43,044 bases of DNA from contig JAKAFX010000005.1 of the NCBI GenBank assembly GCA_021817735.1, forward strand, positions 1-43,044. The letters are read 5' to 3'. Under the pieces are notes generated by a model. It ran no database searches. It had not been told where the DNA came from and worked only from the letters and a program-made list of their open reading frames with translations. Origin of the DNA: Thermoplasmata archaeon. GTDB lineage: Archaea; Thermoplasmatota; Thermoplasmata; Thermoplasmatales; Thermoplasmataceae. Shown one piece after another: positions 12,161 to 23,529 of the stretch. A program made the position numbers and the translations under genes. Numbering within the stretch: position 1 is the stretch's first letter; every line of letters begins with the position of its first letter.

Positions 12161-12784
12161 ATGGGAGATCCTAAATTTCAGAGAAAGACATATTCAACAC
12201 CCAGGCACCCTTGGGAAAAGACCAGAATTGATGAAGAGAGAGCCGTCCTATCGAAATACGGGCTTAAGAACAAGAGAGAACTGTGGAAAGCCCAGTCCAT
12301 CCTTGACTCGTATAGGACACAAGCCAGGTTTTTGCAGGCCCAACTCAGGACCGGAAATCAGGTATCACTCGCACAGTTCCAGATGATGATTAAGAAACTG
12401 AACAGATACCGGATCCTAGGAGAAAACGCCACTCTGGACGATGTCCTTTCACTTTCACTTGAGAGCATACTTGAAAGGAGGTTCCAGAATCTGGTTTATA
12501 GAAAGCATCTTGCCTCCACTCAGAAACAGGCCAGGCAGTTAATAACACACGGGCATATTCTTCTCAATGGAAGACGCGTGAGCATTCCCGGGCTAATGGT
12601 CGAAGCCACGGTTGAAGACTCAATTACCTATGATCCAAGTTCCATTCTTATTGATGAAGATCACCCACTGAGAAGGGCACTTGCAGGCGTGAAGGAATCT
12701 GCTGAGGAAGAGGTCCCTGCTGCTGAGTCGGCGTCTTCCGAGGAGGAAGAGAAAGCGGCTGAAGGAGATGAGAACACACAATGA
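12161..12784 (+). CDS. rps4: 30S ribosomal protein S4, 207 aa
   Basis: S4 is a primary 16S rRNA-binding protein that nucleates small-subunit assembly. It opens with the archaeal S4 start [18 protein letters not shown] and carries an S4 RNA-binding domain around residues 104-165 ([14 protein letters not shown] and later [13 protein letters not shown]). The C-terminus ends in about 30 mostly acidic, low-complexity residues ([16 protein letters not shown] at the end), beyond the usual fold. The start lies 10 nt after rps13, with AGGGA as a weak ribosome-binding site. Its stop overlaps the rps11 start by 4 nt (ATGA). Confidence 0.95.
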
Positions 12785-13989: not shown

Positions 13990-14001
13990 TCAGAGCGCAA
14001 A

Positions 14002-14010
14002 CTTTTATAC
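14002..14010 (+). promoter_or_regulatory. TATA-like element before the IMPase-family gene
   Basis: CTTTTATAC lies about 40 nt before the ATG at 14046 and about 55 nt before the alternative ATG at 14058. A second AT-rich element (AATTATAAAA, about 14023-14032) is closer to the start. Either could serve, so the exact promoter is uncertain. Confidence 0.35.
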
Positions 14011-14045
14011 AATTACCTGAAAATTATAAAACCATTGTTGCCATT

Positions 14046-14828
14046 ATGCGCGGTAGGATGAACCATCTCACTAGGATCCTGATTGACACTGGCAGATCGA
14101 TTCGCGAGGAATTAGACTCACGCAGAATGGAGCTTTCTCTTGGTAGCGACACTGGAATGGGAGCTGACGGTACACCCACGAAAAAGGCAGACAAGGTCGC
14201 AGAGGACATTTTCATCGAGGCGGTTATGTCCAATGATCTTCCATATAATATAATCAGTGAAGAGATTGGATTCATAGACAGGGGCTATGAGAGTAACTTG
14301 GTGGTGGATCCTGTGGATGGGACAACCAATCTGATTGCAGGCATCCCACTTTATGCCATATCAGTGGCTGTAATGAAGGATGACGTGAAATCGACGGATT
14401 ATGGCTTCATAATGAATCTGTCAAATGGCAATTATTATGAGGCTACCCCGGGGGAAGGCATAACCTTCAACGGCAAGCCTGTTTCCCGAAGAGATAGCAA
14501 GACGGGAATCTGCCTTCTCTCCATCTCGGGAGCGATTGATCCTATTGGCTCAAAACTTGTTGCGAGGAGCAGGAAGATAAGGGACCTTGGATGCACATCA
14601 CTGGAAATGGCCCTGGTATCAACAGGGGCTGCAGATGCAGTATGCCATCTTGGTGACAGAGGGGTTGTCCGCAATGTCGACGTAGCAGCGGGTGCGCTGA
14701 TGATCTGGGAATCTGGCGGAAAGATAATAGACCAGCATGGCAGGGAATTCAACATGGGCAGAGACCCTAAGGAGAGAAAGAACATGGTCGCGGCACGGGA
14801 TCACAACATTCTGGAGGGGTTGTTCTGA
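14046..14828 (+). CDS. Inositol-phosphatase family protein (IMPase/FBPase-like), 260 aa
   Basis: This is a metal-dependent, lithium-sensitive-type phosphatase. Archaeal members often hydrolyse both inositol phosphate and fructose 1,6-bisphosphate, so it may serve lipid headgroup synthesis, gluconeogenesis or both. The metal ligands are visible: SEE at 71-73, DPVDGTTN at 88-95, and the C-terminal NVDVAAG motif with its aspartate near 217. Length is standard. An internal ATG four codons in (14058) is a possible alternative start. The gene immediately precedes nadK, and its TGA shares bases with the nadK CTG start. The IMPase-NAD kinase pairing recalls archaea in which the two activities are fused or adjacent. 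Confidence 0.9.
   Translation: MRGRMNHLTRILIDTGRSIREELDSRRMELSLGSDTGMGADGTPTKKADKVAEDIFIEAVMSNDLPYNIISEEIGFIDRGYESNLVVDPVDGTTNLIAGIPLYAISVAVMKDDVKSTDYGFIMNLSNGNYYEATPGEGITFNGKPVSRRDSKTGICLLSISGAIDPIGSKLVARSRKIRDLGCTSLEMALVSTGAADAVCHLGDRGVVRNVDVAAGALMIWESGGKIIDQHGREFNMGRDPKERKNMVAARDHNILEGLF
14813..14817 (+). promoter_or_regulatory. Shine-Dalgarno site supporting the CTG start of nadK
   Basis: GGAGG lies 7 nt before CTG at 14825-14827 and matches the archaeal 16S 3' end. It is the only good ribosome-binding site in the region and fits no other start codon. Confidence 0.6.
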
Positions 14829-15643
14829 AGATTGGGTTTGTAATCAGAAGGGGGTGCGATAGATGCGCCAGGATAGTAAAGAGAATTCTGGAAATACTGC
14901 CCAGTGACTGGCAGGTCTGCCTGGATCCTGAAAGTGCGAGATTTCTCGATACCAAGGGGAAACCAATCGAGAAGATGGACGTCGACATGATCATTACAAT
15001 TGGAGGGGATGGAACAGTGCTAAGGACCCTTCAGGTCGCCCGTTGCCCTGTACTGGGGATCAACATGGGGGGGCTTGGATTTCTCTCTGAAGTTGAGATT
15101 GGTGATGTTGAAAGTACAATTTACAAGCTAATCCGTGGAGAGTACAGCATCGAGAGAAGCCTGAAGATGAGGGTTATGGTTAATGGGATGAGGCTGCCTG
15201 ACAGCGTCAATGAAGTCCTGGTTCATTCAAACAAGATATCGAAGATCAGAAGGTTCAGCATTTCAACCCGGAACAATTTCATCGACCTTACGGCTGCGGA
15301 TGGAGTTATAGTATCAACCCCGGTTGGTTCCACGTCATATTCCTTCAGCGCGGGAGGTCCCATAATTTATCCCACTCTCAAGGCCATGGTCATTTCGTAC
15401 CTGGCACCGTTCATTTCTAGATCCAGGTCAATTGTCGTACCACCGGAGGAGACGATACAGATCAAGATTATAGGGGCTGGCCAGGATTGTCTTCTTGCCA
15501 TTGACGGGCAGTACCAGCAGCAGGTTACCTCCAAGGATGAAATACTGGTGACTATATCGGAAAACAGCGCTGAGTTTGTCACCGTTGGTAATTCCTTCTT
15601 TGACAGAGTCAGGGAGAAACTGATAAAGAATGTGGTTAATTAG
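14825..15643 (+). CDS. nadK: NAD kinase, 272 aa, apparently starting at CTG
   Basis: NAD kinase phosphorylates NAD to NADP in the cytoplasm. The GGDG motif is at residues 60-63 (IITIGGDGTVLR), followed by NMGGLGFLSE and the conserved STPVGSTSYSFSAGGP block. The frame upstream of the first ATG (14975) encodes a typical N-terminal strand and helix (KIGFVIRRGCDRCARIVK), so that ATG would delete the start of the domain. From the TAA at 14768 to 14975 there is no in-frame ATG, GTG or TTG. CTG at 14825 gives MKIGFV, has GGAGG 7 nt upstream and overlaps the previous stop as CTGA. From there the length is normal for the family. The extreme N-terminus has an unusual C-x2-C pair. Confidence 0.88.
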   Translation: MKIGFVIRRGCDRCARIVKRILEILPSDWQVCLDPESARFLDTKGKPIEKMDVDMIITIGGDGTVLRTLQVARCPVLGINMGGLGFLSEVEIGDVESTIYKLIRGEYSIERSLKMRVMVNGMRLPDSVNEVLVHSNKISKIRRFSISTRNNFIDLTAADGVIVSTPVGSTSYSFSAGGPIIYPTLKAMVISYLAPFISRSRSIVVPPEETIQIKIIGAGQDCLLAIDGQYQQQVTSKDEILVTISENSAEFVTVGNSFFDRVREKLIKNVVN

Positions 15644-15992
15644 GGAGAAAATCCTGAGAATGATCATGGAGGCTTCCAAGGATACCTATCCAAGGGAGTT
15701 CGGGGCAATGCTCAAGGCCGAAAGCGGGGTGATCTACGAAATTGCGATCTTGCCCGGCACCATACAGGGGGACCGTCACACCATGTTCTGGATGTACATG
15801 AAGCCGGTGGATTTTTCCATAGTTGGAAGCGTGCACTCCCATCCCAACGGGATTACCCTCCCATCGGATCAGGATCTCCAAATGTTCTCCAACAACGGGC
15901 CGATCCACATAATAGTTGGATATCCCTACAACCTGCGGGACTTCAATGCCTATGACAGGGCAGGGAATCCGGTTGAACTCAAGGTAGTTTAA
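15630..15992 (+). CDS. JAMM/MPN+ metalloprotease, 120 aa
   Basis: This is a small zinc isopeptidase of the JAMM (MPN+) family. In archaea such proteins release ubiquitin-like SAMP modifiers from targets or process sulfur-carrier proteins. The signature is complete: E23, then H69-x-H71, seven residues, S79, two residues, D82 (VHSHPNGITLPSDQD). The domain is compact with no extra regions. The ATG overlaps the end of nadK by 14 nt, so the genes are cotranscribed. Its stop codon abuts the convergent citrate-synthase stop with no gap. The target cannot be told from the sequence. Confidence 0.9.
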   Translation: MWLIREKILRMIMEASKDTYPREFGAMLKAESGVIYEIAILPGTIQGDRHTMFWMYMKPVDFSIVGSVHSHPNGITLPSDQDLQMFSNNGPIHIIVGYPYNLRDFNAYDRAGNPVELKVV

Positions 15993-17063
15993 TCACGGGA
16001 CTTCCAGACCTACCGGGCCAACATACTCGGACTGTGGCCTTATGATCTTGTTGTCAGATACCTGCTCCACGTAATGGGCTGACCACCCGAATACCCTGGA
16101 TGCAGCAAAGATTGGCAGGTAGAATTTCTCTTCTATCCCAAGAGAATGCATCAGCAATGCGCCGTAGAAGTCAAGATTTGCGGGGATTTGCTTTTCTTCC
16201 CACATGTAATTCTCGATTGCCTCGGCATATCCGATGTACTTCCTGGCTTCACTGAGTGTCTTGAGTTTTGATTTGACGTACTGGGCACGCGGATCCTTGA
16301 TCTTGTACACCCGGTGGCCAAAACCCATGATCTTCTCCTTCCTCGCGAGTTTCTCCTTGATAAACTCCACTGCCTCCTCATTTGACCTGAACTTCAGGAG
16401 ATACTGGAGCACCTCGGAATTTGCACCCCCATGGAGCGGGCCCTTAAGGGTGGATAGCGCGGCTGTCACTGCACTGACCGGATCCGCAAGAGTGGAGGCG
16501 GCAACCCTGAGGGCAAATGTTGAGGCATTGAATTCATGCTCCATATACATTACCAGGAGCTTTTCAAGATAACTGGCCATCCGGGTGTCCTTCCTGCCGG
16601 TGAGCAGATAATAAAACCTCTCGGCATAGCTGCCTTCCTGCGGAAATACTTCCTTCCGCCCGGTCAGTGCCGCATCTGAGTAGTAGATGATTGATGGTAT
16701 CTTGGATGCAATCTCCATCAGGAGATCAGGGTTGGCATTATGCTGGTACGGGCAAATGGACACCATTGATCTGAGGCTGTTCATTATGTTCGTTTCCTTC
16801 ATCAGCCTCATCACTTCCGGTACTCTGGGGTCCAGGCCGGAATTCTTTACTAGAAACCTGGAAAAAACGCCCTTTTCCTCGCTGGAAGGCAGTTTTCCAT
16901 GAAATACAAGGTAGGCCACTGATTCGAAATCTCTCTTCTCGGCCAGGTCAACGACCCTGTACCCCCTGTAAAGGAGGTTTCCTTCCCTGTCAGTGGTGGC
17001 AATGGCAGTCTTGTCTACAATCACACCTTCGAGTCCTTTCGCAACCTTAATAGATTCAACCAA
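15993..17063 (-). CDS. prpC: Citrate / 2-methylcitrate synthase, 356 aa
   Basis: This enzyme condenses oxaloacetate with acetyl-CoA or propionyl-CoA. The catalytic set is intact: H211 in GPLHGGAN, H250 in GFGHRVYK and D298 in NLDFY, with H176 in MEHEFNAS. Length fits the short archaeal/Gram-positive dimeric type. Its place as third gene after prpD and prpB points to 2-methylcitrate synthesis. Thermoplasma-type enzymes accept both acyl-CoAs, however, and if this is the only copy it may also serve the TCA cycle. The ATG begins 2 nt after the prpB stop. Its own stop directly abuts the convergent JAMM stop. Confidence 0.88.
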   Translation of the reverse strand: MVESIKVAKGLEGVIVDKTAIATTDREGNLLYRGYRVVDLAEKRDFESVAYLVFHGKLPSSEEKGVFSRFLVKNSGLDPRVPEVMRLMKETNIMNSLRSMVSICPYQHNANPDLLMEIASKIPSIIYYSDAALTGRKEVFPQEGSYAERFYYLLTGRKDTRMASYLEKLLVMYMEHEFNASTFALRVAASTLADPVSAVTAALSTLKGPLHGGANSEVLQYLLKFRSNEEAVEFIKEKLARKEKIMGFGHRVYKIKDPRAQYVKSKLKTLSEARKYIGYAEAIENYMWEEKQIPANLDFYGALLMHSLGIEEKFYLPIFAASRVFGWSAHYVEQVSDNKIIRPQSEYVGPVGLEVP

Positions 17064-17065
17064 TC

Positions 17066-17953
17066 CTATCTCCCTCCCCTGGAAAGCTCCAGGTCTTCTT
17101 TTGCATAATCTGAGTATCCAATGACCTCATAGTATTCCTTTCTGTCCATGAGGCTGGAAATGAATCCTGACTGCGTACCCTTCCGGTAAAGTTCCTGATA
17201 GGTGCCGTATATTGTCTTAAGGGCTGCACGAAAGGCTGTCAGGGGGAATATCACCATCCTGTATCCAATCGACTGTAATTCTTCAGCAGAAAGCAGAGGG
17301 CTCTTCCCGAACTCAGTCATGTTAGCAAGCAGCGGGGCCTTGACCTCTCTTGCAAATCTCTCGAATTCTGCCTTAGATTCCAGCGCTTCAGTGAAGATAA
17401 CGTCTGCACCTGCCTCCAGGTAGACTTTTGCACGCTCGATTGCGTCTTCCAATCCGCCCACTGATCTGGCATCAGTTCTTGCGATGATCTGGAAATCACT
17501 GTTCTTCCTCGCCTGCACGGCAGCAAGAATTTTCTTGGCCATGTCGTCGGAGCCAATGATGGTCTTCCCATCAAGGTGACCACACCTCTTTGGGAGGACC
17601 TGATCCTCAATGTGTATCCCCGAGGCTCCGGCTGATTCCAAGACCCGGACTGTGCGCGTAACGTTCACTGCCTCTCCAAAACCCGTATCGGCATCAACAA
17701 TGAGGGGAGACCTTGATACTGCTGTTATCCTCCGTACTTCCTCTGCGACTTCGGAGAGAGTTGTGACGGATATGTCCGGAAGTCCCATCACTCCTGCAAC
17801 GCCAGATCCAGAAAGGTAAAGGGCGTTGAATCCAGCTCTTTCAGCAAGCACGGCGGATATTCCGTTGAATACGCCGGCACATGTCACAAACGACTTCATC
17901 TGCACCCTGAGGCTCTTCGGCCCCATATTTACATTATCTCTTAGCAGGGACAT
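17066..17953 (-). CDS. prpB: 2-methylisocitrate lyase (isocitrate lyase family), 295 aa
   Basis: PrpB splits 2-methylisocitrate into pyruvate and succinate, the last step of the methylcitrate cycle. The isocitrate-lyase superfamily fold is recognisable from LYLSGSGVAG, the metal site IVDADTGFG (86-93) and the catalytic loop PKRCGHLDGK at 121-130, with C124 as acid/base. KRCGH matches the ICL/MICL group rather than PEP mutase. Length is that of PrpB, not the much longer isocitrate lyase. The start lies 20 nt inside the end of prpD, so translation is coupled. Confidence 0.93.
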   Translation of the reverse strand: MSLLRDNVNMGPKSLRVQMKSFVTCAGVFNGISAVLAERAGFNALYLSGSGVAGVMGLPDISVTTLSEVAEEVRRITAVSRSPLIVDADTGFGEAVNVTRTVRVLESAGASGIHIEDQVLPKRCGHLDGKTIIGSDDMAKKILAAVQARKNSDFQIIARTDARSVGGLEDAIERAKVYLEAGADVIFTEALESKAEFERFAREVKAPLLANMTEFGKSPLLSAEELQSIGYRMVIFPLTAFRAALKTIYGTYQELYRKGTQSGFISSLMDRKEYYEVIGYSDYAKEDLELSRGGR

Positions 17954-23454: not shown

Positions 23455-23529
23455 TAGCGGGGAATGGATTTGAACCATTGATCTACGGGTTATGAGCCCG
23501 TCGGGATTTCCTAACTACCCTACCCCGCT
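23455..23529 (-). tRNA. Initiator tRNA-Met (CAT anticodon)
   Basis: The minus strand folds as AGCGGGG/CCCCGCT with an A discriminator at 455 in the 23-kb block (23455). The anticodon loop is CTCATAA. Two features mark it as the initiator: an A-T first acceptor pair, and three consecutive G-C pairs in the anticodon stem beside the loop (GGG/CCC). The D and T arms, with GGTTCAAATCC, resemble archaeal initiators closely. It lies downstream of the KH gene on the same strand but has its own TATA box. Confidence 0.93.

Follow-up and report, generated by a model that had tools for sequence, protein, structure and literature searches.

The analysed window is a stretch of 43,044 nucleotides, a contig of a Thermoplasmata MAG (99 contigs, 85% complete). 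Its forward strand carries an IMPase-family gene of the FBPase/IMPase/NADP-phosphatase type (14058-14828, Pfam PF00459) and directly behind it an NAD kinase gene. Read from a CTG to the TAG at 15641-15643, the latter covers 14825-15643 and encodes 272 amino acids. The protein matched the NCBI family profile NF002255 (PRK01185 NAD(+) kinase) with 378.9 bits (cutoff 304). Residues 1-272 aligned with positions 1-271 of the 271 profile positions; that is, the profile begins at residue 1 of the CTG-started protein. The Pfam domains NAD_kinase and NAD_kinase_C were also detected, and a GGDG motif is present as IITIGGDGT and invariant in the alignment. The upstream IMPase-family protein scored 202.8 bits against NF009321, below the cutoff of 264.

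The open reading frame of the IMPase-family gene was listed from an ATG at 14046. The start is probably the ATG at 14058, since 14046 corresponds to an ATA in the sister species. The segment before the ATG at 14058 is not conserved as protein between the two species. Between the gene of RNA polymerase subunit D and the IMPase gene lies a TATA/BRE-like element, AAACTTTTATA (14001-14011, forward strand). It is kept in the sister species though the surrounding bases vary, and is the probable promoter or TATA box of an IMPase-NADK bicistron. In 39 of 70 family members, the stop codon of the IMPase gene and the start codon of the kinase gene form an NTGA overlap; this recurring overlap and the conserved TATA-like element suggest a bicistronic message.

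The CTG codon

The CTG occupies positions 14825-14827 on the forward strand. The TGA of the upstream gene (14826-14828) has two bases in common with it, forming CTGA. A Shine-Dalgarno sequence, GGAGGGG, is located at 14813-14819 within the upstream gene; the GGAGG ends at 14817, which leaves a spacer of exactly 7 nt before the CTG. The kinase frame between 14771 and 14974 has no ATG, GTG or TTG in any of its 68 codons. The first in-frame ATG (14975-14977, forward strand) is codon 51 and would be the choice of a gene caller limited to ATG, GTG and TTG. These features had been described in the original prediction, and all of them agreed with the raw sequence, including the loss of 50 residues on annotation from the first ATG and the occurrence of an ATGA overlap elsewhere in the window (one, at 12781). 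CTG is included as a start codon in NCBI translation table 11. With the local codon usage, about 6% of coding stretches are expected to show 50 consecutive codons without ATG, GTG or TTG. The absence of a canonical start is therefore unremarkable alone, and homology has to decide.

The N-terminal region

Codons 2-50 (14828-14974, forward strand) encode the conserved N-terminal region of NAD kinases. Compared with the sister species, they differ at 10 first, 5 second and 26 third codon positions and retain 80% amino acid identity. By this substitution pattern, the segment evolves as protein. A structure model had a low overall confidence (mean pLDDT 44.9), and use was made of its first ~60-80 residues, in which the N-terminal blocks were confident. 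It placed beta1 (residues 2-7), alpha1 (12-24), beta2 (30-33) and alpha2 (35-40) within the first 50 residues.

A translation start at the ATG at 14975 would give a kinase of 222 amino acids. In its favour, no canonical start precedes this ATG, the sister species has the ATG as well, and the shortened protein still matches the Pfam kinase domains. Nevertheless, such a start is very improbable. It would leave the protein-like conservation of codons 2-50 unexplained and, according to the model, delete the beta1-alpha1-beta2-alpha2 unit. A homologous N-terminus is found in all family members with a covered 5' end. Across the order, 79 of 90 relatives have a canonical start at the very codon of the CTG. 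In addition, the ATG lies ~147 nt past the upstream stop, outside the reported range of reinitiation: reinitiation drops steeply with distance in Haloferax and Escherichia coli, and in Haloferax it is near zero at ~22 nt (PMC10666635).

The homologous codon in relatives

The nearest relative is a sister species with 90% protein identity (G046/L002; contig JAKAAY010000001.1). It reads CTGGAGGGGTTATTCTGAAACTGGG at the NAD kinase start, with CTG at the homologous codon. The sister species also contains CTGGAGGGGTTATTCTGAAACTG, and a stop closes the frame 21 nt 5' of the CTG. Its kinase frame contains no canonical start 5' of the CTG nor before codon 22, the first ATG. On sequence comparison, the position of the CTG is the only plausible start codon common to both species. 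A third species of the genus, G045, was left out as its contig begins inside the NAD kinase gene. The sister genus has ATG at the homologous codon in three species.

Among the 70 family members, the homologous codon is ATG in 47, TTG in 12 and CTG in three; the others start at a GTG three codons upstream (3) or a TTG 13 codons upstream (5). In all 20 members from other families of the order, this very codon is canonical: ATG (14), GTG (3) or TTG (3). In another genus, CTG occurs in G065, which sits within a clade that otherwise uses TTG. According to the maximum-likelihood tree, CTG must have arisen twice independently, in the genus of the window and in G065; a single transition converts TTG to CTG. 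Before the change to CTG, this codon would have been ATG or TTG.

Two groups of genomes differed in the arrangement of the locus. In L010, L011 and L012 (g8), the homologous codon is CTG, but the kinase could start at a GTG three codons further upstream, and the overlap with the IMPase stop has been lost. Genus g18 (L018, L019, L021, L022 and L025) has no IMPase gene directly before the NAD kinase, whose apparent start is a conserved TTG located 13 codons further 5'.

An error of sequencing or assembly at 14825, with ATG, GTG or TTG as the true codon, had to be considered for a MAG contig, the more so as TTG is only one base change away. The comparison largely refutes it and leaves it an extremely small probability. 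The same CTG, with no canonical alternative, is present in the independent MAG of G046 (contig coverage 12.5x), a different species, and G065 adds a third genome from another genus. Because synonymous sites are saturated between the window species and G046, it is not credible that both carry one and the same base-call error. With the codon of the relatives, the CTG of the sister species and the coding conservation of the N-terminus in agreement, the interpretation of the CTG as start was borne out: the NAD kinase almost certainly starts at CTG and not at ATG, GTG or TTG.

Initiation across the genome

The comparison covered about 0.5 Mb of the window genome and about 0.64 Mb of the genome of the sister species. 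The unfiltered comparison of open reading frame pairs was dominated by shadow frames. Filtering gave 232 non-overlapping conserved pairs, an upper bound on the number of genes because some spurious frames remain. NAD kinase was alone among the 232 in showing, in both species, clear codon-level conservation well 5' of the first ATG, GTG or TTG. No other convincing gene with a conserved upstream segment was found among these pairs; the next longest segment had 18 codons with six differences in all. Where CTGA occurs between long open reading frames, in most pairs a canonical start lies close by or the second frame is spurious.

A search for an odd initiator tRNA revealed none. The Met tRNA at 23455-23529 on the reverse strand has the expected initiator features, an A1-U72 pair and an anticodon stem with three G-C pairs (GGG/CCC). 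A genome-wide relaxed initiation was rejected, with NAD kinase as the sole convincing case in 232 pairs. The pairwise comparison and the ordinary initiator tRNA indicate a change in one gene.

Proposed termination-reinitiation on CUG

Very probably, NAD kinase is translated from the CUG at 14825, presumably with the ordinary Met-tRNAi and in a termination-reinitiation that would yield a modest amount of full-length enzyme. The overlap of stop and start, together with the strong Shine-Dalgarno sequence, speaks for such a coupling. A ribosome finishing the IMPase-family gene at the UGA would be held by the GGAGGGG and restart on the overlapping CUG. The Met-tRNAi would read the CUG, and the first residue is presumably methionine. 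The predicted duplex with the anti-Shine-Dalgarno sequence has -10.2 kcal/mol in both CTG-bearing members of the genus, versus -5.5 to -6.6 kcal/mol in the sister genus with ATG. The stronger Shine-Dalgarno sequence looks as if it compensates a weak CUG; with few independent lineages, this reading is suggestive only, and conservation of the motif may not reflect initiation since it is part of the IMPase coding sequence.

A low kinase yield is expected from the properties of CUG. In E. coli, CUG initiates with 0.86% of the efficiency of AUG, and it accounts for 0.024% of bacterial starts (PMC11497404). The archaeal factor aIF1 destabilises initiation complexes on non-AUG mRNA (PMC6237735).

Archaea use termination-reinitiation at overlapping gene pairs (PMC6728339). 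The pair described here resembles the known ATGA-type pairs in the 4-nt overlap, the Shine-Dalgarno sequence inside the upstream gene and the co-directional, functionally related partners (PMC6728339; PMC10666635). The reported archaeal overlaps of -4 are ATGA or GTGA, whereas the restart codon here would be CUG.

MJ0917 of Methanocaldococcus combines these two domains in identical order: an IMPase-family domain is fused to an NAD kinase and acts as NADP phosphatase (PMC8553519). This bifunctional NADP phosphatase/NAD kinase (PRK14076) is encoded by one fused gene; in the window, two overlapping genes have a stop between separate frames. The two window proteins obtained 185 and 119.8 bits with PRK14076, short of the cutoff of 493 bits. 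If ribosomes shifted into the -1 frame at the 3' end of the IMPase gene, a comparable fusion would result and no start codon would be needed. Besides the precedent in Methanocaldococcus, the frames overlap in the -1 sense and GGG can re-pair with GGG. The overlap contains no slippery heptamer of the type X XXY YYZ, however, and the G run is missing from G065. Relatives with a normal ATG or TTG start have an IMPase C-terminus that ends at the same place, and the NAD kinase frame of the sister species is open for only six codons before the CTG. Frameshifting has accordingly little more than a trace of probability. ATT is a known start codon, for instance of bacterial infC, yet a start at another near-cognate codon such as ATT 14831 has a practically negligible chance: this ATT is CTG in the sister species, GTT/ATT just upstream varies too, and it is the CTG at 14825 that coincides with the canonical start of the relatives.

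Comparison with known CUG starts

CTG starts are rare but already known. In aligned prokaryotic genomes, switches to CUG were observed for 2 of 61,358 ancestral AUG, 1 of 5,080 GUG and 1 of 2,468 UUG codons (PMC5622118). The NAD kinase start is like these rare cases in having a CTG at a conserved start position together with a Shine-Dalgarno sequence. It differs in belonging to an archaeal housekeeping enzyme and in overlapping the upstream stop. It also differs in being kept by two species and having two origins in one family. For archaea, literature searches on CUG starts yielded little. The remark in the original prediction that archaea have few documented starts of this kind is fair, though not without exception: ribosome profiling (Ribo-seq) of Methanosarcina mazei assigned CTG starts to ~5% of unannotated small ORFs (PMC11456600). 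Those ORFs share archaeal CUG initiation with the present case; they are short and newly found, whereas the NAD kinase is a conserved enzyme of 272 amino acids. Unusually, the CUG is both conserved and recurrent, and it belongs to a housekeeping gene of archaea; it is a well-supported candidate for a rare natural case of archaeal CUG initiation.

Few conserved archaeal genes are documented to initiate at CUG. The occurrence of ATG, TTG and CTG at one homologous codon, with a changing strength of the Shine-Dalgarno sequence, is a clean natural series. It is suited for testing the start-codon strictness of archaeal ribosomes, notably of reinitiating ones. For annotation, gene callers restricted to ATG, GTG and TTG would clip 50 residues from the NAD kinase of the window and 21 from that of the sister species.

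Retention of the CUG

The C of the CTG is also the wobble base of the last codon of the upstream gene, TTC for phenylalanine. A C-to-T change would be synonymous in the upstream gene (TTC to TTT) and restore a TTG start; both sister species keep the C despite the saturation of synonymous sites between them. Phenylalanine codons here are more often TTC (267) than TTT (175), and the retention is therefore weak evidence for selection; chance retention is about as likely. One conceivable, if rather unlikely, reason for selection is that a coupled restart makes NAD kinase almost only after its NADP-phosphatase-type partner has been translated. If so, the CUG overlap would fix the ratio of two opposing enzymes, the NADP-phosphatase type and the NAD kinase. 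A post-terminating ribosome, kept in place by a Shine-Dalgarno sequence, would then accept a codon that is poor for de novo initiation.

Downstream genes

A Prok-JAB (JAMM-like) gene at 15630-15992 overlaps the 3' end of the NAD kinase gene by 14 nt and is possibly a third member of the IMPase-NADK transcript. At 15993-17953 on the reverse strand, a citrate synthase gene with a TTG start adjoins a gene of the PEP mutase/isocitrate lyase family, a neighbourhood reminiscent of the methylcitrate cycle.
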